Positions 609 through 51,925 of a stretch of DNA of 64,000 nucleotides are shown in pieces (the first letter of the stretch is position 1; the number at the start of each line of letters is the position of its first letter). The stretch is taken from assembly GCA_025766275.1 (NCBI GenBank), contig JAFKAC010000032.1, forward strand, positions 124,001 to 188,000. Reading direction: 5' to 3'. This DNA is from Lactarius indigo. Taxonomy: Eukaryota > Basidiomycota > Agaricomycetes > Russulales > Russulaceae. The notes beneath the pieces are model-generated. The model did not search any database and was not told the DNA's origin. It was given only the letters and a program-made list of their open reading frames with translations. The translations under genes were made by a program, and so were the position numbers.

Positions 609-864
609 CTTCGAAGGACAATAAGTACAGGAAGATAATCGAACGAACCAGAAAACATGGGAATGGAGGGTTTCTGATGTTAATCAGGATCTATTACTGT
701 GACGTGAGATTAAACATGACGAACATCAGACATTTTCTCCACGATTGCCAATACTTCCTCGGTGTTGTGTGACTGAGGAAAGGAAGAACGAAGTTGAAGG
801 CAGGCGGGATCAGCGTGATTGCAACGGTACAAGAGGAGGGTACCCACAAGCTGGTGACGTTAAA

Positions 865-27519: not shown

Positions 27520-27983
27520 TGTAACGCCATCACGATGTTAGCTCGACTTGAGCTTGATAAGGCGACTCTACGACTTAGCTAATCCACGCTCAAAGGTGTA
27601 TGGCTCAAAGGCGGGTTCTAGATGTACGCAGACACTAGGATCTTGGTGATACTCCTCCTTGGATGGAGGTACGACGGAAGAAACGACAAGACTGGAAGAG
27701 ACAAGAAGTGACGATTGAAGAAGACCAAGATGGCGTGTCTTGGTCTTCTGCAGCTATCTTAAATACAAGACGAGCAGGCTTTCAAGCGCTGCTATGAGTC
27801 ACCGTATCGTAGCGTCCAACGTATCGCGTAAGTAGCGCAATCCTAGTACTACTACTACCTGTACTAGGGTCGAGTCATCCCTCAACTCCTAACTCCTATC
27901 GTAAATGCCGAGTCCGTGACTAATCTACCTTACCGCCGTAGTCACAACCGGTACAGTAAGGGTCCGATACGAGAACCGTAACA
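27520..27983 (-). repeat. 3' LTR of element 1
   Basis: The LTR is 464 bp, TG...CA in sense, starting TGTTACGG and ending GGCGTTACA. It is preceded in sense by a purine-rich tract, GAGAAGGGGGTGA (plus 27984-27996), the likely polypurine primer. Confidence 0.93.
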
Positions 27984-33868: not shown

Positions 33869-34474
33869 TGATGAACAGACACATAAGAACTATACTCACA
33901 GTGGGACAAAGTACTGTGGTGAGATATAGAGGGTGACTGAGAAGCAGCACAGGAGGTGTCAAGCAAGTGAAGCAAGATAATAGTCTGGCACACAAACAGT
34001 GAGAACTGATGTTATACATTGAGGGAAGGGAGCTTACCTGGCACACAAACAGTGAGAACTGATGTGGACCAGGAGCATACATGCTACTCTACTTATACAC
34101 TTTCTGGGAGTGACACTATACAAGGGATGTAACACTAGTCACGTACTACAAGACAGTTATTGTTCTACAAACGGACAAAGGAGTGGAAATTCTGAGAACA
34201 AGGACAGAAAGTACAAGGAGAGTCTAGAAGTAAGTGATATCATAATGACATCACAATAAAGATAACGCCGCAAAGAGAACAAAGGGAAGAGTACAATGAA
34301 AAGTCCAGAGTGTTCTACATGATGTCATTGTACATGATGTCATAGATAAGCTAAGAAGTCCGAGATTGTACAGATCATATAATCTAATCTACAGGTCCAA
34401 TATATCTTATCTAAAGCAGTCCATATCTGCAAGTCCTTTAGAGCCGCTAAGTGCGCGTGGGCCACTTATCAACA
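33869..34474. mobile_element. Solo LTR inside gag of element 1
   Basis: The 606-bp insert is TGTTGATAAG...TTCATCA on the minus strand. It is flanked by exact 5-bp duplications, ctcct on the plus strand, at 33864-33868 and 34475-34479. The TG/CA ends and 5-bp duplication identify a solo LTR. The TGTTGA start recalls Ty1/copia LTRs, but the family is uncertain. It contains a 28-bp direct repeat (CTGGCACACAAACAGTGAGA core) near 33984 and 34039. The intact gag at 41331-43316 shows the empty site. Confidence 0.85.
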
Positions 34475-35328
34475 CTCCTGGGGGCCCTCCTTCTGGTGGG
34501 TTATTCGGGAGGTCAGGTGGGTTTCCTCCTCCTCCTGGGCGTCGGGGAAAGTCGTCTCTGGGTGGCCTTCCCCATCCTGGTGGGGGGTCTAACGGTATTC
34601 CTCGTCTTACCCCATCCCCTGACAGGGGATCTCCTTGGTCGGGTCCAATAGCCCGAAAGATTGCTGCGTCGTCTGCCGTCATACGGTGCCCTGTTTCAGG
34701 GTTAATGGGCATGAGATGCCGCTGTGACTCTTGTCTAATTGCTTCGGCCGCTTCTCGCGCCGCTTGTTCTCTGACGGTCATAATTTCTTCGGCTGTCATG
34801 GTGGTGGTTGCCATTTCTGCTGCCGGTGATCGTATGTGAATGACTTCTGGCTGGTCTGAAATATGTAGAGACTCAGCTTGTTGGATGGTGTATTGTTTGA
34901 TAGGTCCGACACTTGCGGGTCAATTTTCTTCACTCTGTTCGTCCTCTTCAGTTTCTTCGCTAACTGCTTCTCCAGTGGAGTGTTCTCGCAACTGGCTGTC
35001 AATGGGTCCCCAATCGGCTTGTGAATTGAGCTCGCGTGCATCGATGTCGCACTGGTATTGTCTTCCTGCTGGCCTAATGATGTCCCAGTGGTGGTCTATA
35101 GGATTCCACGTAATTTCTACCCAGCACAGGTGGTCGAAATTGAACTCAACAGGTCTGAACCTTGTAGGTCCGTTGAATTCTACAAAGTATCCGGTTTCGT
35201 CTCCTCAGTCTCTCCACCTAGCTGCTCCTAGGAATCGGGTTGGTACGTTACGGTCTCCTCTTCGGTCTAGATGATAAGGACGGAAGCTCGTCCACTGGTC
35301 TCTGGTATTGATAGTCGCCACAGTGAAT

Positions 35329-35339
35329 ATCTTGGTCTT
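35329..35339 (-). promoter_or_regulatory. Primer-binding site of element 1 (self-priming type)
   Basis: In sense the site is AAGACCAAGAT, two bases after the 5' LTR. It is exactly complementary to ATCTTGGTCTT at 35543-35553 within the LTR, 34 bases downstream of a TATTTAAG box (35580-35587). This is the Tf1-type arrangement, where the folded transcript start primes reverse transcription. Confidence 0.75.
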
Positions 35340-35341
35340 AA

Positions 35342-35805
35342 TGTAACGCCGTCACGATGTTAGCTCGACTTGAGCTTGATAAGGCGACTCTATGACTTAG
35401 CTAATCCACGCTCAAAGGTGTATGGCTCAAAGGCGGGTTCTAGATGTACGCAGACACTAGGATCTTGGTGATACTCCTCCTTGGATGGAGGTACGACGGA
35501 AGAAACGACAAGACTGGAAGAGACAAGAAGTGACGATTGAAGAAGACCAAGATGGCGTGTCTTGGTCTTCTGCAGCTATCTTAAATACAAGACGAGCAGG
35601 CTTTCAAGCGCTGCTATGAGTCACCGTATCGTAGCGTCCAACGTATCGCGTAAGTAGCGCAATCCTAGTACTACTACTACCTGTACTAGGGTCGAGTCAT
35701 CCCTCAACTCCTAACTCCTATCGTAAATGCCGAGTCCGTGACTAATCTACCTTACCGCCATAGTCACAACCGGTACAGTAAGGGTCCGATACAAGAACCG
35801 TAACA
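35342..35805 (-). repeat. 5' LTR of element 1
   Basis: The LTR is 464 bp and carries a TATTTAAG box (sense) and a hairpin-forming GAAGACCAAGA ... TCTTGGTCTTC pair at the presumed transcript start. The flanking duplication aacat is at 35806-35810. Confidence 0.93.
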
Positions 35806-35810
35806 AACAT

Positions 35811-36094
35811 GCAGAGCTGAGCAGAGCAGAGATCAGACTCCCGGGCTGTACTGCATTCCGGAATTCACGCTCCTGCTGTGCAAGACTGCTCGCACTACTT
35901 GCACTCGGGGCAGGGGGTTTCATGTCACGCGACATGGCTGGATCGACCTCCCTGTCGAGTTGGCACGCCTGCCACAAGCGAGCAAGATTCGCTTGTGAGA
36001 TGAGGGGAGAGAGGTGTCGGAAGTCAGGGGACATGTCCCGCACAGACACGGGTATGTATCCAGGAACGATACCGTGGCTAAAGAATGTGTGGTC
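35811..36094 (-). pseudogene. Polo-like kinase copy B, middle segment
   Basis: A 284-bp piece of the PLK linker is stranded between two gypsy elements. On the minus strand it reads MSVRDMSPDFRHLSPLISQA and ANLARLWQACQLDREVDPAM, then SLAQQEREFRNAVQPGS, matching copy A at 6720-7010. It shows the two elements inserted independently about 290 bp apart. Confidence 0.85.
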
Positions 36095-36099
36095 GACAA

Positions 36100-36582
36100 T
36101 GTAACGCCGTCACGACGTTAGCTCGACTTGAGCTCGATAAGGCGACTTAGCTGGTCACGCTCAAAGGCGTATGGCTCGAAGGCGGGTTCTAGATGTACGC
36201 AGACACTAGGATCTTGGTAGTGGCGTTCCTTCTCGATAAGGACGCGGCGGAAGATAAGACGAAAAGAGACAAGAAGTGATGATTGAAGAAGACCAAGATG
36301 GCGTATCTTGGTCTTCCGCAGCTACCTTAAATACAGAAAGAGCAGGCTTTCAAGCGCTGCTATGAGTCACAGTAATGTAGCGTCCAACGTATCGCGTAAG
36401 TAACGCAATCCTAATACTACTACTACTAGTACTAGGATCGAGTCAGAGTCCAGTCAGCAATCACGCGCAATCTCCTATCGTACTACATCGTAAAGCCCTA
36501 AGGCCGTGAGTCCGTGACTAATCTACCTTACCGCCGTAGTCACAACCGGTACAGTAAGGGTTCAGTGCGCAAAACCGTAACA
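36100..36582 (-). repeat. 3' LTR of element 1b
   Basis: The 483-bp LTR starts TGTTACGG and ends GGCGTTACA in sense. It is nearly identical to 43339-43821. A purine-rich tract (GAGAGGGTGA in sense) precedes it. Confidence 0.95.
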
Positions 36583-36609
36583 TCACCCTCTCAGCGTGAG
36601 ACCCCAGAC

Positions 36610-39600
36610 TCACCGGAAGTCCCGCGCCGTCCACGTAGACTGTTCGTCGCTAATCCTCTCGAACACGTTGGCCCTCTCGAGCCGGTAAATGCAGTCCCTC
36701 TTGTCGTCCCTCGCCGACAGCCGCATAGCCTGGAGTTGGCGAATGCGGGCTGCGAGCCGCTCTTCTTCGTACGCGGCCGCACGGTAACGTGTTACTTCTG
36801 CCGTCAGGGACTCGTCCCCAATGCGGTTCAGTGCACGGTCCGTGATCTTGTCCGAAGCGAGGATGACCAGGTCCTCGTGAGCGATGAAGGCGCGTCCCGC
36901 AGCCGATAGCATCGGGTGAGCATAGAGGGGTTTGCCGTAAAGATGGGGGGAGCCGGGGATGAGCCCTAACACAAAGGGGTTCGCACCTCCAACGATTTGT
37001 ATATGACTAGCGTTCCTCTCTACGCCGTCGGGTCCGGTGATGGGGAAATGAATGTAATGGGGCTGTCGATTCGCCCGGAACCCTTCAGGCGCAAGGACCT
37101 GCGCGGGGTCGTCGTCGTGCGTGATGGGGGTGTGAAGTGCGACGCCGGGCAGTCGCACACGTCCTCGAGACATGGCGGTTCCGTCGGTGTGGACGAGCCA
37201 TGGGGTGATTCGGGGATTAGTAGGGTGGCTGTGCGTTCGAAGGAGGGGGTGTCTGACCGGGTAGTAATCCTCGTCGTCAGCGTGAGCTTCGTCGTGAGAG
37301 AGCGCTGCCTGCGCTGCCGCAACTCGCTCAATCTCCTCTGCGCCAAGCGCAACTGTTCGTCGGCCCACTCCTTCGCCACTCTCCGCCAATCCTCCGCTGC
37401 TTCTAACTCCTGTTGGATCTTCGAGGGGACGGTCGGCAGGGAGAATTCCCCGCGTGCCGATGAGGTTGTCACCTGGGGGGATGACGGCAATGGGTTCTCG
37501 ATTGCCGTTGTCGTCTCGGAAGATGTGAGGGACGGCATGCTGCTGCTCGTCGTCGGGCTGGTGAGTCAGGTCGGGGAACCTCTGTAAGACATTAGCCCAT
37601 TCTTGAGCGGTGATATGCCCCGCTCGCATGTTTGCAGGTGTGTACGGAGTGAGCTGGACCTGTTGAACCACGGTTTCTTCGTCGTCTTCGATGAGGTTGG
37701 CGGCGTCTTGTGCGACTTGGTCGAGGAGGATCGCCGTGGTGACATGTCTGAGAGGAGAGGTGGGCATAGACGTAGAAGTGGATCGAAGGTAGGAGCGATA
37801 CTCTCCCTGACACTCCTCGTCCTCGCTTTTAAGTCTTCGTACGGCTGTTCGGGCCGCTTGATATGCCTCTATTGCTTCCGGGGTGAACACGTCGTCTTTG
37901 TCGACCCACTGATTCTCCGAGTCAGGGTACCCCTTCCATTTGATGAGATATTGGAGTTTCTTGCGGCGGCCGAAGTGCCGTGAGTCCAGAACGGCCTCGA
38001 CTTCATATTCTTCTTCCCCCTCCACAAGATCCGGTGGCGGTCGAGGGAAATTTTCACCATGCATGGTTGTGCTCTTGTACGGTGTGAGAAGATCTATGTG
38101 AAACACCGGATGGATACTCCACTGTGTGGGAAGTTCGAGGCGGTAATTGTATGGGGACATCACCTGAACTACTTTAAACGGACCGTGGCGTCGCGCCGCA
38201 AGTTTTGCTGTAGGTTGATTGGTTCGAAGATGTTTTCCTTCTAACCACACTTGGTCACCTATTTGATATTTCGGGGTGTCTCGGTGTTTCACCCAACTGT
38301 CCTGGGCCCTCTTGATAAGAGTCTGGGCCAGCTGTCGCGCTTCCTTAAGCTGCGTGAGTCGGGTGATGACATTCGGAATGGGAGAGGGCTTATCCGTCCA
38401 ATCGGCAGTCGGGTTGTAGCCCATGAGTAGCATGAACGGAGATTGTTTTGTGTGCTCATGGGGCCAATTGTTATGAGCGAATTCCGCTATGGGGAGATAG
38501 GCTGCCCAGTTATCTTGCCGCTCGTTAGCCCAGAATCGCAGGTACTGTTCCAGCCACTGATTGGTTCGTTCCGATTGTCCATCCGTCCGTGGGTGATACG
38601 CTGTTGAAATGTTCTGTTTGATACCCAGGATTCGGCATACTTCCTTAGTGAACTTGGACGTAAATCGAGGGTCGCGGTCGCTGATAATTTTGCGCGGTAG
38701 TCCGAATCGTTTGAAAACATGACTGACGTACAGGATGGCGGTTTCTTCTGCCGTAATTTCTTCGTTACACGGGATGAATATGGACGCCTTACTGCAGTCG
38801 TGGTCTGTAATGGTGAGGATGCTGTCATAGGATTGGGACGCTGGTAGCTTGGTAATGAAGTCCAACGCGATAGTGTGAAAGGGGGGAGCGTCCGTTACTG
38901 TAGTAATGGGGTGTAGTGGCACGCGGGTCGGTCTTGTATTGACCTTGTTCCGTTGGCAATCAGCGCATCCTACCACATATTCGTACACATCCCGCCGGAG
39001 GCGCGGCCACCAGTAGTGTCGTTCGACGATCCGCTGCGTTCTACTGATGCCGGGGTGTCCGTGGACGGGCAGGTCGTGATGGTCGTGTATTATGGCGCGG
39101 TATGCGGTCATAGGTCCAGTAATTACCAACTTTCCGTCCTTATACCATTCTCCTTCAATTTGCTTCAACTGGTGGGCGTCGACCCACGCCTTGATGATGG
39201 TTGGATCCTGGGTTCGTCTCGGTTGTTGCAACAGTGGATGTGTTTCCGAGGCGCGCGCGGCATTAGCGGCTCGTACAAAAACGTCCGGAGGTAGGACGAC
39301 CACACCTTGGTTATCGTCTTCTCCCTGGTTATAGTCTGGCCGTCTGGATAGGGCATCCGCCCTGCCGTTGTTTTTCCCCTTAATGTGATGGATCTCGAAG
39401 TCGTATTCCATCAACTCTAGCACTTCTCGGGCGACCCTTCGGCTGATCTTTTGCGGAGTTTTCCAATATTGGAGGTTGAGGTGGTCGGAGAATATCTTGA
39501 TTTTGTGTGGGGATCCTGCGAGTAGGGGTCTCCAATGCCGAAGGGCCTTGACGATGGCGAGAAGTTCCAGGTCATAGATATCATAATTTCGCTCGGCTTC

Positions 39601-41421
39601 ATTGAGCGTTGCCGAGTAGTATCCTATTGGGTGCTTGCGACCGTCATTTTTCTTCTGCAAGAGTACCACACCTACCGCGAATCCCGACGCATCAACTTCT
39701 AGTTCGAACTGTTCTTGTAAGTCAGGGTGCGCCAGCACGGGCTCTTCGGTTACAAGACGTTTGAGGGTTTTGAATGCGCGGTCTTCGTCATCTCCCCATT
39801 TCCATTCGGCATCCTTCCTCGTCAGTCGGTTAAGTGGTCGTGCGTGAGTTGCGAAACTTCGGATGAAGAGGCAGTAAAAGTTACAGAACCCCAAAAATGA
39901 TCGTACGTCCCTGACTTTGGTTGGCGTTGGCCAATCCTTGATGCCACGAACCTTTACCGGGTCCATACGTGTCACCCCCTTTTCAAGGATTACCCCCAGG
40001 TAATCCATCCGAGGCTGGTGAAACAGGCACTTTTCGAGCTTGAAGTAAAGGTCGTGGTCTTGGGCAACGCGAAGGACATCCGTGACCGCTGCAACATGGT
40101 CGGCAGATGTAGAACCTTCGCGTGTGGCGATGCCGATATCGTCCATATAGACCCGAATGATTGTGCCCCGAAGTTCATGCTTGGCAATGGTGTCGCGATA
40201 GATATGGTTCATCATGGTTTGGAAGGTTGCCGGTGAGTTGGTGAGCCCAAAGAACATGACTGTTGGTTCAAAGAGTCCGAACTTGGTTTTGAATGTGGCC
40301 TTCTCCTGATCACCGTCGCGTATGCGGATATTGTTGTATCCCCAGCGAATATCGAGCTTCGTATAGATGTAAGCGTTGCTAAGGTCGTAGATGAGGTCTT
40401 GGATCAGGGGAAGTGGGTATTGATTGCGTATGGTGTGTGAGTTGATGATGCGGTAGTCCTGCACGGGGCGTAGTTTTCCATCCTTCTTTTTAACGAAGAA
40501 GAATGACGATGCGTACGGGGAGATTGAGGGGTGAAGATATCCTTGCTGAAGCTTTTCGTCCAAGAATTCCTTAAGTTTCCCTTCCTCCTCCTGCATCAAC
40601 GGGTATATCTTGCAGTCGATCGCGGAGGGTGTGCCGGGCTTAAAGTCGATTGCGTGATCCCATGGTCGGGCAGGGGGGAATCGTTGGGATGCTTCTTCGC
40701 TGAAGAGCTTCTGAAAAGCTTGATATACCGCCGGCAGTTCTGTAGGTTTCTCCTCCGTCTTCGCTTTGATGGCCAATTCGGTAGATGTGGTCGCCCGCAA
40801 GTACGTGTCTTCTTCGTCCATATCTAGGATGATTGCTTCCTTTTGTTCGTTAGTGAGGGCGGACGCGATAACCGTATAACGGTTCAGACTGTCCTGTGTA
40901 CTGATCACGATGGGCATGACGTCCTCGTGTATGACCACGTCTCTCCAGTTGATGGTCGGTTCATATGTCGCTAGCCAGGGATATCCCAGAACGACATCCT
41001 CACTTCCGAGGTCCGTGATAAGGAAGCGCATGGTCCTGTGATACCCTTTGGCATATACGTCTAAGTCGGTGAAGTGAGTGATAGACCCAGCTTTGTTCTC
41101 GGTGTTGTCTATATTCCAAATTTTTCGCGGCTGGGTCAAGGATTGGGTACCTATGCCCATTCTTGCTGCGAAGTTGGGATGCATGAAGTTGTCGGTGGCT
41201 CCGGAGTCCACCAATGCTCTTATGTCGGCCATTCGGTAATTCGTGCGAATCGAGACTGGAATTCGAAGGGAGCGAAAGCGCGTCATGATTACAGAATTAC
41301 AATTTAAAGCCCTCACCCAGGCCGATGGGTTCAGGCGCTCCGAAAACCCTCTTTTCCCCATAAGTCCTGCAGTATCAAGTCTTTTACTTCGTCTGGTGCG
41401 TTTGCGACTCCGGTGAGCCAT
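36610..41421 (-). CDS. Pol polyprotein of element 1b
   Basis: The 1603-residue frame has these parts: aspartic protease DSGAT at residues 72-76; reverse transcriptase about 270-450 with YMDD at 425-428; RNase H from about 570 (ELEVDASGF). The integrase HHCC finger is at about 783-822 (HHDLPVHGHPG, CADCQ), and its catalytic core has Asp854 (ALDF), Asp915 (ISDRD) and Glu951 (SERTNQW). The chromodomain is at about 1138-1190 (YLIKWKGYPDSENQWVDKDD). About 410 residues follow that I do not recognise (SRGRVRLPGVALHTPIT, then PHYIHFPITGPDGVERNAS). The frame has no early in-phase start used for gag. Its first 30 codons overlap gag in the -1 frame, and it is most likely made as a Gag-Pol fusion by frameshifting at 41343-41349. 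Confidence 0.93.
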   Translation of the reverse strand: MAHRSRKRTRRSKRLDTAGLMGKRGFSERLNPSAWVRALNCNSVIMTRFRSLRIPVSIRTNYRMADIRALVDSGATDNFMHPNFAARMGIGTQSLTQPRKIWNIDNTENKAGSITHFTDLDVYAKGYHRTMRFLITDLGSEDVVLGYPWLATYEPTINWRDVVIHEDVMPIVISTQDSLNRYTVIASALTNEQKEAIILDMDEEDTYLRATTSTELAIKAKTEEKPTELPAVYQAFQKLFSEEASQRFPPARPWDHAIDFKPGTPSAIDCKIYPLMQEEEGKLKEFLDEKLQQGYLHPSISPYASSFFFVKKKDGKLRPVQDYRIINSHTIRNQYPLPLIQDLIYDLSNAYIYTKLDIRWGYNNIRIRDGDQEKATFKTKFGLFEPTVMFFGLTNSPATFQTMMNHIYRDTIAKHELRGTIIRVYMDDIGIATREGSTSADHVAAVTDVLRVAQDHDLYFKLEKCLFHQPRMDYLGVILEKGVTRMDPVKVRGIKDWPTPTKVRDVRSFLGFCNFYCLFIRSFATHARPLNRLTRKDAEWKWGDDEDRAFKTLKRLVTEEPVLAHPDLQEQFELEVDASGFAVGVVLLQKKNDGRKHPIGYYSATLNEAERNYDIYDLELLAIVKALRHWRPLLAGSPHKIKIFSDHLNLQYWKTPQKISRRVAREVLELMEYDFEIHHIKGKNNGRADALSRRPDYNQGEDDNQGVVVLPPDVFVRAANAARASETHPLLQQPRRTQDPTIIKAWVDAHQLKQIEGEWYKDGKLVITGPMTAYRAIIHDHHDLPVHGHPGISRTQRIVERHYWWPRLRRDVYEYVVGCADCQRNKVNTRPTRVPLHPITTVTDAPPFHTIALDFITKLPASQSYDSILTITDHDCSKASIFIPCNEEITAEETAILYVSHVFKRFGLPRKIISDRDPRFTSKFTKEVCRILGIKQNISTAYHPRTDGQSERTNQWLEQYLRFWANERQDNWAAYLPIAEFAHNNWPHEHTKQSPFMLLMGYNPTADWTDKPSPIPNVITRLTQLKEARQLAQTLIKRAQDSWVKHRDTPKYQIGDQVWLEGKHLRTNQPTAKLAARRHGPFKVVQVMSPYNYRLELPTQWSIHPVFHIDLLTPYKSTTMHGENFPRPPPDLVEGEEEYEVEAVLDSRHFGRRKKLQYLIKWKGYPDSENQWVDKDDVFTPEAIEAYQAARTAVRRLKSEDEECQGEYRSYLRSTSTSMPTSPLRHVTTAILLDQVAQDAANLIEDDEETVVQQVQLTPYTPANMRAGHITAQEWANVLQRFPDLTHQPDDEQQHAVPHIFRDDNGNREPIAVIPPGDNLIGTRGILPADRPLEDPTGVRSSGGLAESGEGVGRRTVALGAEEIERVAAAQAALSHDEAHADDEDYYPVRHPLLRTHSHPTNPRITPWLVHTDGTAMSRGRVRLPGVALHTPITHDDDPAQVLAPEGFRANRQPHYIHFPITGPDGVERNASHIQIVGGANPFVLGLIPGSPHLYGKPLYAHPMLSAAGRAFIAHEDLVILASDKITDRALNRIGDESLTAEVTRYRAAAYEEERLAARIRQLQAMRLSARDDKRDCIYRLERANVFERISDEQSTWTARDFR

Positions 41422-43316
41422 TCCTTGGCACGTTCTTCCGCTGTTTTACTAGTGGAAGCGGCCTGTATTTGGGCTGGCGGCGGTTCTTGCGTGTAGTAAT
41501 CGGTTTCTGTCGCGCACACGTTTGAAGGTCCCACATTCTGCGTTTGCCACTGCCGCGGTTGTCTGGGATGGGGGCAGTTTCGTGAGAGGTGACCCGGTGC
41601 GTTACAATTGTAACACAATACTGTCCTGAGATCTCGTCGTGACCCCCCTCTTCCTCGTCCTCTCACCCCTGGTCCTCCTCTCGGCGGGAAGGGGGGTTGG
41701 TTCGTATATGGTGGCTTGCCGTAATCGATCTCCTCCGACCCTGCCAACTGTGCTTTCGCTCGGTCGGCCGAGGTATCCATTGCCCATGGGTTTGCGAGGT
41801 TTTGCGGGACAGTCCACCCAGCGTTGCCTGTCTTCTTCGGCTTTGTATCTTTGTATTCATCCACTCTAGCTCGAATGTGGATGTAATTGCGTTGCCGACG
41901 GAGTGTCGCTCGCTTCCACTCGTCGAAAGTTTCTGGTTCGTCTAGATCGTAGGTCTTCTCGTATAATTTCTTGGGTAGTCCTTTTGTGAATAAGTTGATG
42001 GTCTGGGGGTCGTTAAGGCGATAGCCAGCTTTTCTAGCGGCTTCTTCGAATTCGTTGACATATTTGTTGATGTCCCCGTCCACCATTTTAAGCCCCTTTC
42101 TCAACAGGGCTTGAGCTTGTTCTCGTTCGAGGGTATTGACGAACTTTTGGTTGAAACCCTCTGCTACTGCATTCCACAAATCCCTCGTATATTGATCGAT
42201 CCCTCGTTGTATTTGTCGGTTGAGCCACTTGAGGTATGAGAGTACCCATTCGCTGACCGATGCCCCCTTGATGTAGGAAAGGAAGAGGAGGCATCGTCGA
42301 TAGTCGTTACGCATAACGGGGGTGTCGAGGTTCATGCCCCAATATACGTGCCATTGCGTGAGGAATGAGTCGACCTTAGTGCGATCTCCGTCAAAAATAG
42401 TGGGAGGTTCACCGGTTAGTTTTTCGTGCCCTCCTCCGCCTCCACCTGGTGGGCCTCCTCCTCCGCCTGGTGGGCCTCCTCCTCCACCTGGTGGGTTATT
42501 TGGAATATCTGGTGGACCCCCTCCTCCTCCTGGTCGTCGGGGAAAGTCGTCTCCGGGTGGTCCTCCCCATCCTGGTGGAGGGTCTAACGGTATTCCCCGT
42601 CTTCCTCCTTCTCCTGATGGAGGATCTCCTTGATCTGGCCCGATGGCTCGAAAGATTGCTGCGTCGTCTGCAGTCATGCGATGTCCTGTTTCAGGATTGA
42701 TGGGCATGAGATTCTGTTGCGACTCTTGTCTGATTGCTTCGGCTGCTTCTCGTGCTGCCTGCTCTCTGACGGTTATGATTTCTTCGGCTGTCATGGTGGT
42801 AGTTGCCATTTCTACCGCCGGTGATTGTACGTGAATGACTTCTGGCTGGTCTGAAATATGAAGAGACTCAGCTTGTTGGATGGTGTATTGTTCGATAGGT
42901 CCGACACTCGCGGGTCGATTTTCTTCGCTTTGCTCGTCTTCCTCGGTTTCTTCACTGACTGCTTCTCCCGTAGAGTGTTCTTGTAGCTGGCCGTCAATGG
43001 GCCCCCAGTCGGCTCGTGAATTGAGCTCACGCGCGTTGATGTCGCACTGGTACTGTCTTCCCGCTGGTCTTATGACGTCCCAGCGATGATCTATGGGGTT
43101 CCACGTAATCTCTACCCAACACAGATGGTCGAAATTGAACTCAACAGGTCGGAACCTTGTAGGTCCGTTAAATTCGACAAAATACCCCGTTTCGTCTCCT
43201 CGGTCTCTCCACCGGGCTGCTCCCAGGAATCGGGTTGGTACGTTGCGGTCTCCTCTTCGCTCCAAGTAGTAGGGACGGAAGTTCGTCCACTGGTCTCGGG
43301 TGTTGACAGTCGCCAC
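41331..43316 (-). CDS. Gag protein of element 1b
   Basis: The 661-residue capsid/nucleocapsid protein starts MATVNTRDQW, 23 nt downstream of the LTR. The parts are an N-terminal domain (NVPTRFLGAARWRDRGDETG), an acidic and Gln-rich middle, and a helical segment (EEIITVREQAAREAAEAIRQ). A Pro/Gly tract (GGGGGPPGGGG) follows, then a retrotransposon-Gag capsid region (FLTQWHVYWGMNLDTP, then DLWNAVAEGFNQKFVNTLE). A CCHC zinc knuckle (CYNCNAPGHLSRNC) and a C-terminal tail ending DLWGKEGFRSA complete it. It forms the particle in which reverse transcription occurs. The same gene is split by insertions in elements 1 and 3. Confidence 0.93.
   Translation of the reverse strand: MATVNTRDQWTNFRPYYLERRGDRNVPTRFLGAARWRDRGDETGYFVEFNGPTRFRPVEFNFDHLCWVEITWNPIDHRWDVIRPAGRQYQCDINARELNSRADWGPIDGQLQEHSTGEAVSEETEEDEQSEENRPASVGPIEQYTIQQAESLHISDQPEVIHVQSPAVEMATTTMTAEEIITVREQAAREAAEAIRQESQQNLMPINPETGHRMTADDAAIFRAIGPDQGDPPSGEGGRRGIPLDPPPGWGGPPGDDFPRRPGGGGGPPDIPNNPPGGGGGPPGGGGGPPGGGGGGHEKLTGEPPTIFDGDRTKVDSFLTQWHVYWGMNLDTPVMRNDYRRCLLFLSYIKGASVSEWVLSYLKWLNRQIQRGIDQYTRDLWNAVAEGFNQKFVNTLEREQAQALLRKGLKMVDGDINKYVNEFEEAARKAGYRLNDPQTINLFTKGLPKKLYEKTYDLDEPETFDEWKRATLRRQRNYIHIRARVDEYKDTKPKKTGNAGWTVPQNLANPWAMDTSADRAKAQLAGSEEIDYGKPPYTNQPPFPPRGGPGVRGRGRGGSRRDLRTVLCYNCNAPGHLSRNCPHPRQPRQWQTQNVGPSNVCATETDYYTQEPPPAQIQAASTSKTAEERAKEWLTGVANAPDEVKDLILQDLWGKEGFRSA
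41343..41349 (-). other. Candidate -1 ribosomal frameshift heptamer
   Basis: GGGTTTT lies in the gag phase G-GGT-TTT, fitting the X-XXY-YYZ rule. A -1 slip here exits gag into the pol frame reading SERLNPSAW. GGGAAAA just upstream is also in phase and offers an alternative site. The GGGTTTT heptamer is kept in elements 1 and 3. Confidence 0.6.
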
Positions 43317-43325
43317 GATTAGAAT

Positions 43326-43336
43326 ATCTTGGTCTT
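43326..43336 (-). promoter_or_regulatory. Primer-binding site of element 1b (self-priming type)
   Basis: The sense sequence AAGACCAAGAT is exactly complementary to ATCTTGGTCTT at 43528-43538 in the 5' LTR, which lies about 34 nt downstream of the TATTTAAG-like box. Confidence 0.78.
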
Positions 43337-43338
43337 AA

Positions 43339-43821
43339 TGTAACGCCGTCACGACGTTAGCTCGACTTGAGCTCGATAAGGCGACTTAGCTGGTCACGCT
43401 CAAAGGCGTATGGCTCGAAGGCGGGTTCTAGATGTACGCAGACACTAGGATCTTGGTAGTGGCGTTCCTTCTCGATAAGGACGCGGCGGAAGATAAGACG
43501 AAAAGAGACAAGAAGTGACGATTGAAGAAGACCAAGATGGCGTATCTTGGTCTTCCGCAGCTACCTTAAATACAGAAAGAGCAGGCTTTCAAGCGCTGCT
43601 ATGAGTCACAGTAATGTAGCGTCCAACGTATCGCGTAAGTAATGCAATCCTAATACTACTACTACTAGTACTAGGATCGAGTCAGAGTCCAGTCAGCAAT
43701 CACGCGCAATCTCCTATCGTACTACATCGTAAAGCCCTAAGGCCGTGAGTCCGTGACTAATCTACCTTACCGCCGTAGTCACAACCGGTACAGTAAGGGT
43801 TCAGTGCGCAAAACCGTAACA
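43339..43821 (-). repeat. 5' LTR of element 1b
   Basis: The 483-bp LTR contains a TATA-like TATTTAAG and, just downstream, the self-complementary GAAGACCAAGA / TCTTGGTCTTC pair. The exact duplication gacaa follows. Confidence 0.95.
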
Positions 43822-43826
43822 GACAA

Positions 43827-44965
43827 TGTCATGCAACAAGGGCCGTTCTTGAGGGTTGGGTGTGAGTATCTGCTGCATGAGTTCACGGGCGTCGAGTGAT
43901 ACATCTCGGTGTGAAGGGAACTCATATTGGTTGTTGCGGATACGCCTGCGCAGAGTTGAGGTCAGGTCGCTAGTAGGAATACCTGCGAGCTTACTGATAT
44001 ACCTCTTTGACATCTTTAGTTTGGAACGGAGGACGGCCGACAACGAATGTGTACAAAATGACACTGATCGACCAGATGTCAACTTCAAAACTGTGTCTGT
44101 TCGCAGTGTCGAACAATACCTCTGGCGCAATATAGTTGGGTGTGCCGCAGATGGTCTTCTTCCGCTCCCCAGGGCTCTCGATAAGCGCGGCCAGACCAAA
44201 GTCGCCAACTTTGATGTTCATGTCTGCGTCAAGGAAAAGATTGCCGAGCTTAAGGTCATGGTGGATGACCTGATGTGTGTGCATATAGTGGCAGGCACCA
44301 ATGAGTTGCACCATGAAGAACCGTGCCTCTGGCTCTGTGAAGACGTGGCGACGGTGGAGCATGCCCATGAGAGAGCCGCTGGGACAAAGCTCAAGGGTCA
44401 TGTATACGTTCTCAACATCCTCGAAGCAATCTATGAACTGGATGATGTTGGGGTGGTCTAATGCTTTGTGGATTTCGATTTCTGCGTAAAGATGGGACCT
44501 GTTTAGTATCTGATAACAATCTGGGTATGGTGAGCATGCACCTTGGTTTTAGCTTTCTTGGTCTTGAGCAAGCTCTTCGTCATGACCTTACAGGCAAGGC
44601 GGTTGTCGCGGGAATCTCTAACTTGATACACTCTAGCGAAACCGCCCTGTAAGGTTAGGGTAGGTGAGAAACAGAGAGTGCTGAGAGAAGTAGGTGCTGA
44701 CCTCTCTGAGGAAAGACATTCTTTGATATCGCAGAGAACCTGTTTTGTCTTGGATGACTTGGGGTGGCAAAGGGAGCTGAACTTTGGCATTCTGGCGAGG
44801 CAAGGGGAGTAATGGTTTCTTTTCATAGGTCGCTGGCTTCGGTGGGACCTCAGGAGGAACGTGGTTATTGATAGCGTTAGATAAGGGGTTGCGCCGATGG
44901 GTGGTCATTGAGGTGGCTGGTGGGGGGATCAGAGTGAGACGAGCGTGATGGAGATGAGCGTTCAT
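43827..44965 (-). pseudogene. Polo-like kinase copy B, 5' segment (kinase domain)
   Basis: The N-terminus is MNAHLHHARLTLIPPP..., then GGFARVYQVRDSRDNRLACK with the ATP-binding Lys (AAG at 44587-44589). [49 protein letters not shown] and DIWSISVILY follow. The frame is better kept than in copy A, but the HRD catalytic motif reads HHD (VIHHDLKLGN). The gene is cut downstream by the element at 36100-43821. It cannot make a full kinase. Confidence 0.87.
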
Positions 44966-45071
44966 TTGTCACAGAGGCCTAACACCAGAGACAACTAGAG
45001 AGAAGAATTGGGACTTGCTGGTCGACACCTTGCGCATTGTTGAGCAAGTTAAAGTTAAAGTAAAACAAGTC

Positions 45072-45651
45072 TGTTATGATCCGACGCTTCGGACCTCAGC
45101 CACAGTATGTCTCCACCCTGCCTTTCCACTTCTGTACTATACATTGTTACCAAAGGAGCTACTCTTACCAGTGGCGTTGTTTCTCTTGATCCAAACTTCT
45201 GCTTACTCCGTTTAGTCTCTTTGATATTGTGTGGGCTTGTGTTCATGTTGTTTGGAACCCTGTCCTATATAAACCTGTACCATAGACCGTAGGAAGCCAG
45301 ACTTGGCTTCGTTTGCAATCTAGCAACCTTGCCTCCATACTTTGGTGTGACCTTGCCTTATCCCTCTCTTCTTGTGCATCCCCTACCTCAGTCCCTAACT
45401 CGGACACTTCGAAGTCTTTGCAGTTGAACTATATCAACGTGTTACACCTGTTAAACTCTGTGCACTAGCAAGATTAAGTGTAGAGAAGTGTTAGACACTT
45501 CGGACGAGGAGTCCTACATTACAGAGTAGTGCTGCACCTTGTGCCACACTTTTACCACTCGTATTTCATAGCAATAAGACAACAGAGGTCTTCGCTTGAT
45601 ACTTGTGTGATTCAGAACCTCTAGAACCCACGCCCCTGCTAGGGCGTAACA
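45072..45651 (+). repeat. 5' LTR of element 2
   Basis: The LTR starts TGTTATGATCC and ends GGGCGTAACA. It has a TATATAAA box at 45266-45273 and a GAAGCC...GGCTTC hairpin at the predicted transcript start (45294-45310). Confidence 0.88.
45266..45309 (+). promoter_or_regulatory. LTR promoter and predicted transcript start of element 2
   Basis: TATATAAA at 45266-45273 is followed 33 nt later by AGACTTGGCTT at 45299-45309. This is the exact complement of the primer-binding site and the likely 5' end of the RNA. Confidence 0.6.
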
Positions 45652-45652
45652 T

Positions 45653-45663
45653 AAGCCAAGTCT
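45653..45663 (+). promoter_or_regulatory. Primer-binding site of element 2 (self-priming type)
   Basis: AAGCCAAGTCT begins one base after the LTR and is the reverse complement of AGACTTGGCTT at 45299-45309. The 11-mer differs from that of elements 1, 1b and 3, but the pairing is kept. Confidence 0.78.
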
Positions 45664-45859
45664 ACAACTCCCAACACACCCAAGACACTACTGCCACACA
45701 GCAGAGTGGGTGACGATCCAAGAGGACGCATCAGCCAACAACCAGACACTCCACAGAACCCAGAAACGACAGCATAGCCGGGTGACGGATCCTCCTTGAC
45801 ACAAGAGGCCGCATCAGCCATCCCCTTACACAAATCAGCACCCAAGACAGACCACAATC

Positions 45860-47551
45860 ATGGCTAGCATCAGTGTCACCTTTGAATCAGACAACGATTG
45901 GACCCCAGTCACAACCAGAACACAAGACAACCTCCCACACCACGTTAAAAGCAGCCAACTAGGAAGAGGAGCTCGCTGGGCCACAACACCAAACAGACCA
46001 CCTTGCTACAAGTGCCTCATCAAAGGCGAACTCAGACTAGTAGAATTCATCAACAATAACTGGTACATCCTCCGATACTTTCAGAACACATACCATACCA
46101 GAGCCATAAACATCACACCAAAAAGATTCGCTGAAGGACTAGGCTGGTGGAACGAAGAGGATGAACAGAACCCAGAAACACCCACACAACAATCATCCTC
46201 AGCACCAAGAAACACTAGGGGAACATACGGACTACAACAAGACTCATCAGAAGAAGAACCCAGCTCAGACGGAGTGGAATCACACTCAGAACCATCTCAC
46301 TCCTCAGGACACCGCTTAGACATCACAGTACCCACACAAGCTTCGTCACAAGCCAGCCCCACCATCCCTATTTGGATAGAACCATCCCCAGCGGAAGAAG
46401 GATTCCCAACCCCACTACCACCAATCAGATTGCCCTCCCCAGTTGAACCACCCCAGATCCCCATCACACCACAGCCAACACCCATCATGTCAGCTATAAA
46501 CGCCACAGGCACTGGCACAGGTACTGGCTCAAGCACCGGAACAGGGGGAACACCAACAACAAACTCAGGAGGACTCAAAGGAGCACCCCCTACTCCGTTC
46601 ACTGGAGACAGAACAGAGAGTGGTCAGTTCAAAAGAGAACTACTGCGATACATCAAGTTGAACAGTGAAAATGAACTCATCAAAGAACCTTATGCACGAG
46701 TACTATTCGCTCTTAAAATGTTCAAAGGACCCGGTGTACAACTATGGGTCAACCAAACCGAAGATGACATGGAAGCAGCACTAGCAGACCCCACCAAAGC
46801 CCTCACCAAAAACAGCAAAGACCTTTGGGACGGTTTTCTTGACACCTTCGACAGAGACTGGACCGACACCCTAAACAAAGAAAGAGCCTACCAGAAGCTC
46901 ATCAGTCTGACGATGCAGGGTGGAGCATTGGACAGTTACATCCTCGACTTCAAACACCTTGCAGGAATAGCAGGATGGGCAAGAGATGCCCCTGGAACGG
47001 TGGAATTCTTCAAAAGAGGATTACCCACAGGACTGTATCGTGCTTGCCTTATGCGAACCACTATTCCAAACACCATGGACGAGTGGCAGACCGCTGCCAG
47101 AGCAGAACATCAACATTGGAAGCTGCTAAAAGCCAGACCAGGGAATAGAAACCCAGGGCCAACCCAGAACGTCCACCAAGGACGACCAAAGCGAGACCCA
47201 AATGTGATGGATGTAGATGCCACCACCTCCACCCCCTTTAAGAAGCTTACCGAAGAAGAAAAGAAAGCCCTCATGAAAGAAGGCCGCTGCTTCAAGTGTA
47301 GACAGCAAGGACACATGGCTAGGAACTGTCAACGACAAAACACCACCAACCAAACCAAAGCCAGAGCCACAGACACCCAAGAAGCGGACACTGCACCCCC
47401 ATACACCCCAGAAGCAAGCACCTCATCAGTAGCCACTACCACAACCGAAGACAAAGTCCGACAAGCCCATGCACTTGTCCAAGGCATGACTGAGGACGAA
47501 AAGAGATGCTACTATGCCTTAGACCAGGATTTTTGCGATGCCGACCTGTGA
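45860..47551 (+). CDS. Gag protein of element 2
   Basis: The 563-residue frame starts MASISVTFESDNDWTPVTTR, 208 nt after the LTR. A Pro/Ser-rich middle and a Gly/Thr tract (GTGTGTGSSTGTGG) precede a capsid region (PPTPFTGDRTESGQFKREL, then DLWDGFLDTFDRDWTDTLNK). A CCHC knuckle (CFKCRQQGHMARNC) follows, and the protein ends YYALDQDFCDADL. It is intact, unlike pol of the same element. The end overlaps pol in the -1 frame. Confidence 0.9.
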   Translation: MASISVTFESDNDWTPVTTRTQDNLPHHVKSSQLGRGARWATTPNRPPCYKCLIKGELRLVEFINNNWYILRYFQNTYHTRAINITPKRFAEGLGWWNEEDEQNPETPTQQSSSAPRNTRGTYGLQQDSSEEEPSSDGVESHSEPSHSSGHRLDITVPTQASSQASPTIPIWIEPSPAEEGFPTPLPPIRLPSPVEPPQIPITPQPTPIMSAINATGTGTGTGSSTGTGGTPTTNSGGLKGAPPTPFTGDRTESGQFKRELLRYIKLNSENELIKEPYARVLFALKMFKGPGVQLWVNQTEDDMEAALADPTKALTKNSKDLWDGFLDTFDRDWTDTLNKERAYQKLISLTMQGGALDSYILDFKHLAGIAGWARDAPGTVEFFKRGLPTGLYRACLMRTTIPNTMDEWQTAARAEHQHWKLLKARPGNRNPGPTQNVHQGRPKRDPNVMDVDATTSTPFKKLTEEEKKALMKEGRCFKCRQQGHMARNCQRQNTTNQTKARATDTQEADTAPPYTPEASTSSVATTTTEDKVRQAHALVQGMTEDEKRCYYALDQDFCDADL

Positions 47552-50500
47552 GAGCTGACAGGGAGGCCAATTCAATGTATAGTGTTCGAGATAGTGCTAT
47601 GACAATCAAAGTCCTCGTTCGCCTTTACTACAAAGAAGCTCGCATAAATGTGCTGCTAGACAGCGGTGCAACAGACAACCTAATCGACCGAAATCTGATC
47701 CAAAAACTTGGACTAGGAACCACTCCTTTAAAACCACCCAGATTGGTCCAAAATGTAGATGGATCGCTAAACAAAGACGGCACCATGATGGAAACATGCC
47801 AGCTATGGATGAAAAGAGGAGAAGAGGAAACTCCTTTCCAATTCTTCGTGACCAGCCTAGGAGAAGACAGAATGATCTTTGGATACCCCTGGTTTGAACA
47901 CGAAAACCCAGACATAGACTGGAAGAAACAAGAGCTGAAAGGAGAAGCAGTCACCATCCTGACAGGAGGGTACCGCTTCCGAAGAAAGCGACACCAAGAA
48001 GCAAAAGCGGCAGCAACCAAAACAACCTTTGACCCAGTAAAGGAAACCGCAATCCCAGAAGAATACCAGTGCCACAACAAAGTATTCTCAGATGAAGAAG
48101 CACAGTGCTTTCCCCCAGAAAGAGAAGAAGACCATCCCATCACACTGCGACCAGATGCACCTAACAAGATCAATTGCAAAATCTACCCCTTGACTCCAGA
48201 AGAAGACAAGGAGTTAAAAGCATATCTTGACGAAAACATAGCAAAAGGATACATCTATGAAGGAAGCTCCCCCTATGCTTCCTCCTTCTTCTTCAGAAAG
48301 AAAACAGATGGAGGGTTGCGCCCCATCCTGGACTACAGACCCCTAAATACTTGGACAATAAAAGACACTTATCCACTACCTCTCATCTCTGACATCCTGA
48401 CCAACTTAAATGGGAAAACACTGTTCTCAAAGTTCGACATCAGATGGGGGTACCATAACATCCGCATAAAGGAGGAAGACCAGTGGAAGGCAGCCTTCAA
48501 GACACCAAGGGGACTGTTCATCCCTCGAGTCATGACCTTCGGCCTTACAAATGCACCAGCCACCTTTGCAAGAACCATGAGCAGAATACTCCGACCACTC
48601 ATGGACAAATACCCCAGAGAACTATTTGTGTACATGGACGATGTCCTGATAGCCACAGAAGAAGATACAGAGCGCCACAGACAAATTGTACACAAATTCT
48701 TGGAAATCTGTGAAAAGGAATCTTATTTCCTCAAAGCGTCGAAATGCATGTTCGAACAAAGAAAGATCCACTACCTAGGCATTGTCATCGATGGGTCTCA
48801 GATCAAAATCGACCCAAAGAAGGTAGAAGGACTAAAAGACTGGCCAAGAGACATCAAGTCAGTCAAACAAGCAAGAAGCATGTTGGGGACACTAAGTTAT
48901 CAGCGACCCTTCATCCCCAACTTTGCTCACTTAGCAAGACCCATCACGGACACAATAAAGACATCAGAAGGACCCTTCAGATGGACAAAAGAAGCAGCAG
49001 AAGCCTTAGAAACTCTCATCACGCTTGTGTGCAAAGACCCCATCTTATGTCAACCAGATATGGACAAACCTTTCGAACTAGAAGTAGATGCCTCCACTTT
49101 CGCCACAGGGGCAATCTTAACACAAAGAGACAGCTAAAACAAACCACAAGCTGTGGGATACTTCTCCAAATCATTTTTAGAAGCGGAGCGCAACTATGAC
49201 ATCCATGACAGAGAACTCCTGGCAGTAATCAGAGGGTTAGAACACTGGAGACACCTTCTTTTAGGGTCCCCCCACGAAATCACAGTGTTTACAGACCACA
49301 AAAACCTAGAATATTATCGCCACCCTCAACAAATCAATAGGAGAGTGGCGCATTACATCCCCAGACTTGCAGACTATCACATCAAACTTCACCACAAACC
49401 TGGACCCCAGAACCATGCAGATGCCCTGTCAAGACGCCCTGACCATGACACCGGAGCAGGGGATAACACCGATGTGGTGGTCCTGACCCCAACTATCTTC
49501 GCAAACTCCGCTCTCTCCATAAGGATAGATGACCAGGTCATGGCACACCAATTAGACCACCAAGACACTCTGGACGAGTGGGCTGCCCCCTTCCACCTAG
49601 TAAAACAAGGCAAACACTGGTGGAGGCAACAAACTGGTGGTTGTGGACAACACACCGCTAAAGAGGGGGGTAATTTCCCTGTTTCATGATACAAAAACAG
49701 CTGGACACCCCGGAATAACAAAGACCTTGTGGTTAGTGTCACAAGATTTTTGGTGGCCAAACATGAAAGACGACATATCCGCATATATAAAGGGCTGTGC
49801 CACATGCCAATCAAACAAGAACTTCCCTGGGAACCTGAAACCACCGATATTCCCCATCAAGACTAACCCAGAAGCACTCCCTTTTGAAACCATCGCCCTA
49901 GATTTCATCACGAAACTACCCCAATCAGAAGGCAATGACACAATTCTCACCATCACGGATCATGACTGTTCCAAAGCAGCCTTCTTTATCCCATGTAGCG
50001 AAACAATAGACGCAGAAGGAGTGGCAAAACTCTATGCCAAAACTGTCCTGCCACACTATGGATTACCAAGAAGGGTCATCTCCGACAGAGACCCCAGATT
50101 CACTGCAAAGTTCATCAAAGAACTATGCAGGGTGCTCGACATAGAACAAAATATCAGCACAGCATACCACCCACAAACAGATGGACAATCAGAGTGAACA
50201 AACCAGTGGTTAGAACAGTACCTCTGGATGTTCATAAACCACCAACAAGACAATTGGACGGAGCTACTACCACTGGCACAGTACACCCACAACTCTTGGC
50301 CAAGCGCAACCACTAAAAAGGCACCTTATGAACTAATTCTTGGATACATCCCAAGAGTACACCAACCAGAAAGAACGGCCACAGTACCAGGAACACAAGA
50401 AAGACTGGAGCGGATCCAAGAAGCCAGAAGGACCGCCCAAGCAGCGATTACCCATGCACAGTCCCTCTACAAAGGATCCTCTCACTTTGAACAACACACA

Positions 50501-51411
50501 GAAGGAGATAGTGTGTGGCTGGATGCCAGGAACTTGAAAACAACGCACCCTAGTTTCAAGTTAGCCCCAAAAAGATATGGACCCTTCAGGGTCACAAAGA
50601 AGATCTCCACCACCACATATGCCCTGAAACTTCCCCATCAGTGGTGGATCCACCCAGTATTCCATGCGTCCCTCCTGATGCCATACAAAGAAACCTCCAT
50701 ACATGGAAAGAACTTCACGGAGCCACCCCCAGATCTAGTAGATGGAGAACAGGAGTGGGAAGTTGAGAAAATACTAGAAACAAGACGCCACAGGAACCAG
50801 TTACAGTTCCTAATCAAGTGGAAAGGATACTCCGATGCACACAATAGCTGGGAACCAGAAAAGAACCTCAACACCCCAGAACTTATTCAGGAACATTTTG
50901 AAAGCAACCCCAGAAGTGAAGGAGCAAAACAGTGGTTAAAACAAAAGGAAGTAACAATACGAACAGTAACCACCTTCCCCACTAGCTTCCTCACCATGCC
51001 CTCTCGCTCCTCCTCTGTAGAACGCCTCGTTGCTCGTGCCATGGAAAGAGGCTCCTTTGATGAAACACCCTCTGTCACACCCTCCTCTGGCTATTCTCCC
51101 TTCCCAGCACGACCCCCTTCCTTGCCTTCACTCATCCAAGAACCACAGCCCATCGATCCCACTATGCCCAGCGTCATAGAAACAGAAGGAGGAGGAATAG
51201 CCCTTCGCGTTCCCCCTCCTGGACACACAGCTCCCCCTACTCCAGAGATACACCGACCTATCACCTCCCCCCCTGATCCTAGAGTGGCTATAGCTCGCCT
51301 CAGCAAAATAGTTAACGACCCAATCATGGACGCACTCCCCATTGACTATGAAAGGATGAACATCACCGCTGAAGAAGATGACGACCCTGGCTACCCCTTC
51401 TTCTTGAATGA
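47506..51411 (+). pseudogene. pol of element 2 (two stops, one frameshift, truncated)
   Basis: Domains are protease (LLDSGATDNLIDRNL), reverse transcriptase (FVYMDDVLIATEED) and RNase H (ELEVDASTFATGAI). The integrase follows (HPGITKTLWLVSQDFWWPNM, then ALDFITKLPQSEGNDTIL and ISDRDPRFTAKF), and the chromodomain is near 50756-50920 (FLIKWKGYSDAHNSWEPEK). An in-frame TAA lies at 49135-49137 where Gln is expected, and an in-frame TGA at 50195-50197 where Arg is expected (QSE-stop-TNQWLEQY). A frameshift near 49625-49640 separates RNase H from integrase. The chromodomain is followed by a Ser/Pro-rich tail that runs into the LTR of element 3. Confidence 0.9.
47527..47533 (+). other. Candidate -1 frameshift heptamer, element 2
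   Basis: GGATTTT lies in gag phase (G-GAT-TTT), 18 nt before the gag stop. A -1 slip leads directly into the pol frame (FLRCRPVRADREAN). It resembles the GGAUUUA class of slippery sites. Confidence 0.45.
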
Positions 51412-51912
51412 TGTTATGGTACGGACTTTACTGCAGGAAGTGTACGACTCATGGCTGGTTATGACTACGGCCCGACGTGTCATTAGTCATGGACTTTTAC
51501 ATCGTATCAGTCAGCATGTAGTTAGCATGTGATTCGTGACTCATGTATGACTCATTCCTAGGATAGCTGTACTAGGGTTCGAGCTAGTTACGCTACTGGA
51601 TAGGTTACCTTCTAGCAGCGCTTCAAAGCCCGCGCGTATCTGTATAAGTAGTTGTCTTAGAAGACCAAGAGTCTCCATCTTGGTCTTCTTCAATCCACCA
51701 TTTGCCTCGCCTCTTGCCTTAGTCCCGGACTAAGAGTACTTCCGCTGCTATCCACCAAGGGATAGTACTTCTTCATCCTTGCTGCAGTGTGTGCCAGTGA
51801 GCCCCTGTTCAGTTCGCATTGGGTTGACACCAGTCCCCATTTGCCTAGTCTTCGCTAAGTCGATTACACCTATCTTGAGTCCAAGTTGGACTAATGCTGG
51901 TGGAGCGTAACA
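51412..51912 (+). repeat. 5' LTR of element 3
   Basis: The LTR is about 501 bp, starting TGTTATGGTACGGAC and ending GAGCGTAACA. It aligns by eye with the element 1 LTR (shared gactacggc block near 51463 and agcagcgctt block near 51613). A TATA-like TATAAG lies at 51643-51648. The 5' flank aatga (51407-51411) should recur beyond the window. Confidence 0.78.
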
Positions 51913-51914
51913 TT

Positions 51915-51925
51915 AAGACCAAGAT
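51915..51925 (+). promoter_or_regulatory. Primer-binding site of element 3 (self-priming type)
   Basis: AAGACCAAGAT is complementary to ATCTTGGTCTT at 51677-51687. That segment starts 34 nt after the TATAAG box and is preceded by the same inverted GAAGACCAAGA arm. Confidence 0.75.

Follow-up and report, generated by a model that had tools for sequence, protein, structure and literature searches.

Four LTR retrotransposons in the 64,000 nt of DNA analysed here (the window, which belongs to a 90.3 Mb genome assembly of 291 contigs) carry a PBS that is exactly complementary to an 11-mer of their own 5′ LTR. The complement occupies a fixed position relative to the TATA box and covaries with the PBS between families, and the PBS has no match to the scored tRNA genes. 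From these observations we infer RNA start, cleavage and priming: judged from the sequences, the elements are very probably self-primed in the manner of Tf1. While this mechanism itself is already known, the newer and less expected part is an arm in U3 which pairs with the primer copy. The explanation as a whole, namely Tf1-like self-primed chromodomain Ty3/gypsy elements, several of them with a hairpin that is likely under selection and may mask the 3′ primer copy, is one that we hold with good confidence.

Complementary 11-mers in four elements of the window

Two of the elements, E1 and E1b, are on the minus strand and the other two, E2 and E3, are on the plus strand. The following features were annotated.

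43339..43821, minus strand: 5′ LTR of E1 (TGTTAC...GTTACA), target duplication TTGTC at 43822-43826
36100..36582, minus strand: 3′ LTR of E1, target duplication TTGTC at 36095-36099
43326..43336, minus strand: PBS of E1, AAGACCAAGAT, 2 nt past the LTR
43528..43538, minus strand: self-primer copy of E1, ATCTTGGTCTT, predicted RNA +1 to +11, 34 nt from the first TATA base
43544..43555, minus strand: U3 arm of E1, GAAGACCAAGAT, pairs with the primer copy in the hairpin
43566..43572, minus strand: TATA box of E1, TATTTAA
36289..36299, minus strand: primer copy in the 3′ LTR of E1, the copy proposed as masked by the arm
36305..36316, minus strand: U3 arm in the 3′ LTR of E1
36610..41421, minus strand: pol ORF of E1, 1603 aa
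41331..43316, minus strand: gag ORF of E1, 661 aa, Retrotrans_gag and zinc knuckle
35342..35805, minus strand: 5′ LTR of E1b
27520..27983, minus strand: 3′ LTR of E1b
35329..35339, minus strand: PBS of E1b, AAGACCAAGAT
35543..35553, minus strand: self-primer copy of E1b
35559..35570, minus strand: U3 arm of E1b, GAAGACCAAGAC, loop end unpaired
45072..45651, plus strand: 5′ LTR of E2
45653..45663, plus strand: PBS of E2, AAGCCAAGTCT, 1 nt past the LTR
45299..45309, plus strand: self-primer copy of E2, AGACTTGGCTT, 33 nt from the first TATA base
45293..45310, plus strand: U3/R hairpin of E2, GAAGCCA GACT TGGCTTC
51412..51912, plus strand: 5′ LTR of E3
51915..51925, plus strand: PBS of E3, AAGACCAAGAT
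51677..51687, plus strand: self-primer copy of E3, ATCTTGGTCTT, 34 nt from the first TATA base
51660..51670, plus strand: U3 arm of E3, GAAGACCAAGA

E1 is flanked on both sides by the 5-bp target duplication TTGTC, and its two LTRs, when cut 2-4 nt wider than the LTRs themselves, are identical at 482 of 487 aligned positions. As a 3′ LTR was not identified within the window for E2 and E3, the ends of their LTRs were placed via TG...CA motifs and copies elsewhere. The pol gene of E1 has Pfam matches to RT, RNase H, the integrase zinc-binding domain, SH3_Tf2-1 and a chromodomain, with the matches to protease and integrase core remaining below the Pfam cut-offs. A similar set of domains is distributed across several ORFs in E2, and the protease-RT parts of the two elements share 39% identity. 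On the basis of these domains, E1 and E2 are classed as Ty3/gypsy elements that possess a chromodomain and an SH3 domain of the Tf2-1 type. The RT-RNase H part of E1 has 4895 relatives; among the best 120 listed, two come from Lyophyllum shimeji, and a fish and an alga are also represented. The host is probably a fungus.

Several other repeats were noticed in the window. One dispersed segment has copies at 6713-7611, 35807-36102 and 43917-44432, adjoining E1b and E1, and these two elements may have been inserted into copies of that segment. The gag gene of E1b is apparently interrupted at 33850-34485 by an insert which, by eye, resembles the start of locus L065 and perhaps represents another LTR family. 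A solo LTR (TGTCACG...GTGACA, 52915-53646, target duplication GGCAT) is nested downstream of the LTR of E3. There is also a large duplication (359-6443 and 20999-27247, about 20 kb apart) with repeats spaced by 69 bp, and the region 55733-58411 contains arrays of 81-bp repeats.

The first-pass annotation of this DNA had claimed exact complementarity between the PBS and an 11-mer of the 5′ LTR, and this is present in all four elements. It is also correct that two distinct pairs exist, with PBS AAGACCAAGAT in E1, E1b and E3 and PBS AAGCCAAGTCT in E2, each having its own LTR complement, and that the TATA box precedes the complement by about 33-34 nt: the distance from the first TATA base to the first primer base is 34 nt in E1, E1b and E3 and 33 nt in E2. 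The PBS had been placed just after the LTR. It is indeed near the LTR but does not directly adjoin it, the gap being TT (2 nt) in E1, E1b and E3 and T (1 nt) in E2. An exact 11-mer complement is expected by chance anywhere in one such LTR with a probability of about 1e-4, and within 3 positions with about 7e-7. In all families that were kept, the primer copy is 32-35 nt from the TATA box, which is the place where a transcript would start. The gap of 1 nt instead of 2 nt between LTR end and PBS, which is seen in E2 (position 45652) and in L070, would fit a primer of 10 nt.

Covariation of primer and PBS between families

When further family members were collected, as the first-pass annotation had advised, pairing was found to be kept across nine different primer/PBS sequences. 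In a matrix of 11 PBSs (nine of them different) against 11 LTRs, complementarity extends over 10-11 nt in the cells with the same primer and over 4-9 nt in the others.

The search for families combined 150 scored RVT_1 hits with the distant end of the search with the RT of E2 and led to 12 upstream stretches, for which LTR pairing was sought with nine downstream partners. LTRs are present in five of these nine pairs, and the PBS complement was found in four of the five loci (L064, L066, L070 and L072, with the same primer in L066 and L072) and is absent in L062. No complement in the corresponding placement was found in the remaining seven loci (L061, L063, L065, L067, L068, L069 and L071); LTR pairs were sought in four of these (L061, L065, L067 and L068) and not found. 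L062, which has an LTR pair, has neither a self-primer of at least 7 nt nor a tRNA match. It is a Ty3/gypsy element with its LTR at about 1069-1364 of the reverse complement.

Additional families came from records labelled bacterial or archaeal (one genome each for 84,980 species), where 67 Ty3/gypsy pol loci (L166-L232), presumably eukaryotic contamination, were detected. A strict scan, which covered each of these outside loci up to 600 bases beyond the match start and required a TATA box 27-45 nt upstream, gave hits in eight of the 67 loci compared to 3.6 in shuffles, so that support for the outside families comes from how good the individual matches are and not from their number. In those retained (L170, L171, L172 and L191), a TGACA end and the match of 11-12 nt are separated by exactly 2 nt, and the TATA box is 32-34 nt before the primer copy; an LTR pair was not confirmed in these four. 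L189 and L193 were detected through the similarity of their LTRs to that of L171. Four other loci that passed the strict scan (L182, L200, L212 and L213) were dropped as apparent A+T-rich chance matches; L201, which has a candidate of just 9 nt, was dropped as well. Viral contigs were also scanned for relatives and yielded no confirmed locus.

Within families, 61 copies of the 5′ LTR were compared, which comprise 18 of the E1 family (including E1 itself, L001), 6 of E2, 14 of E3, 11 of L072 and 12 of L064. LTR end and PBS are exact in all 61 copies of these five groups and the primer in 60, the exception being L094 with one changed base; since the copies were selected by a match extending beyond the PBS, these counts show constancy only. 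The 18 copies of the E1 family are those whose match extends beyond the LTR, from 30 loci excised out of 44 matches, and the others were chosen from the matches listed (6 of 40 for E2, 14 of 44 for E3, 11 of 40 for L072 and 12 of 40 for L064). The L070 family, for which eight relatives were fetched, was excluded from this set. PBS and primer are both exact in two of these (L113 and L114), part of the PBS has apparently been lost in L115, and in the other five the similarity stops at the LTR. In the L064 family (L121-L132), all 12 copies contain a second copy of the primer together with the next nucleotides, AACTTGTCCTCTTGGTTCTC, located 66-68 nt downstream of the first.

Priming by a tRNA is usual for Ty3/gypsy elements. 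The PBSs of E1, E2, E3, L066, L070, L064 and L062 were compared with 63 tRNA genes scored in this genome (37 distinct), another check that had been proposed, and for none of the seven does the match to a tRNA 3′ end surpass that of shuffles. The best match to a 3′ end is 5-6 nt in the six self-primed PBSs, which is within the range of shuffled PBSs, and 7 nt in L062; anywhere in a tRNA, the six self-primed PBSs match over 6-7 nt at best. TGG does not occur within the first 18 nt of any of the seven, and the combination typical of tRNA-primed Ty3/gypsy elements, a TGG start with a match to a tRNA 3′ end, was not found. Even though the 63 scored genes may not be the complete set and the comparison gave the initiator tRNA no separate treatment, it is highly improbable that a host tRNA, whole or halved, serves as primer and that the LTR complement is coincidental, as this complement recurs at the same place with differing sequences. 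Tf1-like self-priming, as originally claimed, is supported by the nine covarying pairs, the TATA spacing and the lack of a tRNA match.

By this mechanism, transcription would begin at the LTR 11-mer, with ATCTTGG... or AGACTTGG... as the first bases, and the first 10-11 nt of the RNA would fold onto the PBS shortly beyond the 5′ LTR. The RNase H of the element itself would then release these 10-11 nt, which would become the primer for reverse transcription. When leaders were folded with a nested model, the primer:PBS duplex reached a mean probability of 0.75-0.96 in six of eight leaders. In the leaders of 313-325 nt, the value is 0.003 for E1 and 0.000 for E1b, and forcing the duplex costs 2.2 and 5.2 kcal/mol, respectively; in the shortest leader, the duplex is the minimum for both. 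The outside leaders, which were cut shorter, have mean probabilities of 0.92-0.99 in six of six cases. The duplex is thus favoured in 12 leaders other than the longest ones of E1 and E1b.

A U3 arm paired with the primer copy

An inverted arm ahead of the presumed start, which had also been described earlier, is present in all four elements, and its stem with the primer copy is longest in E1 (13 bp), followed by E1b and E3 (12 bp each) and E2 (7 bp). Pairing between U3 arm and primer copy over 12-13 bp is found in E1/E3 and in two outside families. The hairpin is weaker in E2, L066/L072 and L172, and it is absent or differently built in L070 and L064; for L064, a strong hairpin was obtained with a wider folding window, and its loop contains the primer.

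The hairpin was matched by none of 1000 U3 shuffles in E1, E1b, E3, L170, L171 and L191. The p values are 0.04 for E2, 0.009 for L072, 0.125 for L066, 0.07 for L172, 0.43 for L070 and 0.48 for L064, and in the LTR stretch of E2, 7 of 190 other windows fold equally well. When each of eight families is represented by its worst member, Fisher's p amounts to 4e-7, for a hairpin window that was selected after E1 had been inspected. The value becomes 2e-5 if the E1 family is removed, and 1e-5 if only the three outside families are considered, which already looked promising before the shuffle test. The outside families have related pol genes (64-72% in the DNA pieces listed), and no similarity to the LTR of L171 was found in L191 or L172.

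Within families, the arm is more constant than the spacer next to it. In 26 distinct segments of the E1 family, one of 11 columns is variable in the arm and 10 of 10 are variable in the spacer between arm and TATA box. In 13 segments of E3, none of the 11 arm columns is variable, compared to 6 of 11 columns of the spacer. The primer has 11 columns, of which none is variable in the E1 segments and one in the E3 segments. Because the segments were located by anchor bases (TATA plus TCTTGG in E1 and E3, primer plus following bases in L072), the constancy of these bases is partly built in; the arm is outside the anchor. The LTRs of E1 and E3 can be aligned mostly around the hairpin part (86 nt at 79%), with only one more same-strand piece of 39 nt.

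In six copies of the L171 family, 71 of 72 cells of the 12-bp hairpin are paired, and this number drops to 13-36 of 72 when the arms are slid by 1-3 positions. The count left out the decayed 5′ LTR of L168, in which both the hairpin and the exact primer have been lost (L233, L234, L235 and L237 represent the same places as L171, L189, L168 and L170). Double changes affect two of the pairs, one of which has both sides in U3 and occurs in G-C, G-U and A-U forms. In L193, the same exchange occurs in arm, primer and PBS together. Paired cells amount to 77 of 80 in the L072 family, with one double change, to 120 of 121 in E3 and to 249 of 260 in E1, where all 11 open cells are at the innermost pair; as the copies are related, paired cells are not independent events. 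Between families, the sequence of the arm differs while the pairing is preserved. We consider it likely that the U3/R hairpin is under selection in some of the families.

Proposed masking of the 3′ primer copy and comparison with known systems

The first-pass annotation had suggested that the arm could fold the RNA end. The arm is real, but this suggestion has to be modified, since in the families with hairpins of 12-13 bp it begins 11-17 nt past the first TATA base, which is too near for a transcript start. Transcription from this TATA box would drop the arm from the RNA 5′ end and retain it in the 3′ LTR. In E2, the arm starts 27 nt past the first TATA base and the argument is weaker there. 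The primer sequence is present twice in self-primed elements, and only the 5′ copy should prime. The expected difference between the two RNA ends leads us to propose masking of the 3′ primer copy by the arm. One and the same DNA sequence would leave the primer free at the 5′ end but locked at the 3′ end, and the locked copy would neither compete for the PBS nor get cut. Being intact, it would template the restoration of the consumed nucleotides after strand transfer. According to the Tf1 scheme, as given in PMC7175516, the first 11 nt would be consumed as primer, so that restoration from the 3′ copy would be needed and protection of that copy would be useful.

Modelled opening energies are consistent with such a role. 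In ten sequences with the hairpin (E1, E1b, E2, E3, L072, L170, L171, L189, L191 and L193), opening of the primer copy costs 7.3-16.5 kcal/mol in the context of the 3′ LTR versus 1.1-7.0 kcal/mol at the RNA 5′ end, and an equal degree of closure is reached by 0-5 of 200 shuffled U3s. The difference between the contexts is no more than about 2 kcal/mol in L066, L070, L064 and L172, where 155, 56, 94 and 63 of 200 shuffled U3s, respectively, keep the primer copy as closed as the real one does. We regard masking of the 3′ primer copy as a serious possibility for the role of the hairpin. It would explain how an element distinguishes its two ends, which would act differently within one RNA although their repeats are identical, and arm, primer and PBS would together provide a sequence signature by which such elements can be recognised. 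Still more tentatively, many self-primed LTR retrotransposons may use a U3 arm to lock their 3′ primer copy, with a three-way evolution of arm, primer and PBS.

Instead of keeping the 3′ copy off the PBS, the arm might serve the first strand transfer or the integrity of the 3′ end, either by marking +12 as the landing point of the strong-stop DNA or through trans pairing to the 5′ end of the RNA. The stem of E1 ends at +12 to +13, beside the expected landing point, and arm and PBS share sequence, so that the RNA 5′ end could pair with either. We nevertheless consider such a role rather unlikely, as the stem in L171 and L191 spans about -3 to +9 and does not mark +12. Doubt is stronger for a feature of the DNA or promoter, such as a palindrome at the initiator to which a dimeric factor binds. 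In every case the hairpin is between TATA box and presumed start or across the start, and LTR promoters for Pol II often involve a hairpin, according to PMC3601003. A structure fits better than a bound sequence, however, since the arm sequences differ between families (AAGACCAAGA, AAGCCA, GTTCGCCTT, GTCGAGGCTGAA) and the pairing stays. It is improbable that the arm is a functionless by-product, a PBS copy or primer complement placed in U3 by template switching: it does repeat most or part of the PBS in E1, E2 and L171, but the stem exceeds the PBS match (by G-C at +12 in E1 and by -3 to -1 in L171 and L191), a variable spacer borders an arm that stays constant, and the pair with both sides in U3 appears in three forms.

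Tf1/sushi elements are characterised by a three-duplex 'pretzel' leader and by RNase H cleavage after nt 11 of the RNA. An LTR complement of about 11 nt near the expected start, as in this group, is found in E1, E1b, E2, E3 and the further families. For the PBSs of this genome that were compared with its 63 scored tRNA genes, complementarity to a tRNA is lacking, as in the group, and E1 and E2 have the chromodomain of the group.

The comparison with known systems is based on published descriptions. In the open-licence literature on self-priming elements, the portions covered contain no mention of a U3 arm of the primer copy. As proposed for the elements of the window, the first 11 RNA bases of Tf1/Tf2 from Schizosaccharomyces pombe are complementary to the PBS and self-priming replaces the tRNA, and a chromodomain is present as in E1 and E2 (PMC7175516, PMC10085805); primer sequences and host are different, and pairing of a U3 arm with the primer copy is not mentioned in these portions. 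Tj1 (S. japonicus), Tosmo and Tcry1 from fission yeasts likewise have a PBS that can pair with the presumed 5′ end of their mRNA, and a potential 'pretzel' leader is described for them (PMC4600332, PMC10085805). They differ by other primer sequences, and again the portions covered do not mention a U3 arm. For SM-Tcn1 from spikemoss, one study reports evidence for neither tRNA priming nor self-priming (PMC2864245), and SM-Tcn1 and Skipper are described in the literature consulted, which also includes PMC5006619, as having other or unknown priming. Self-priming has been described for Tf1/sushi, Tcn1, Tj1 and the plant Tcn1 clade (PMC6317226, PMC4600332, PMC7175516, PMC10085805). Like the elements analysed here, Tcn1 from the basidiomycete yeast Cryptococcus and the Tcn1 clade of non-seed plants are chromoviruses for which self-priming has been proposed or predicted (PMC7175516, PMC6317226).
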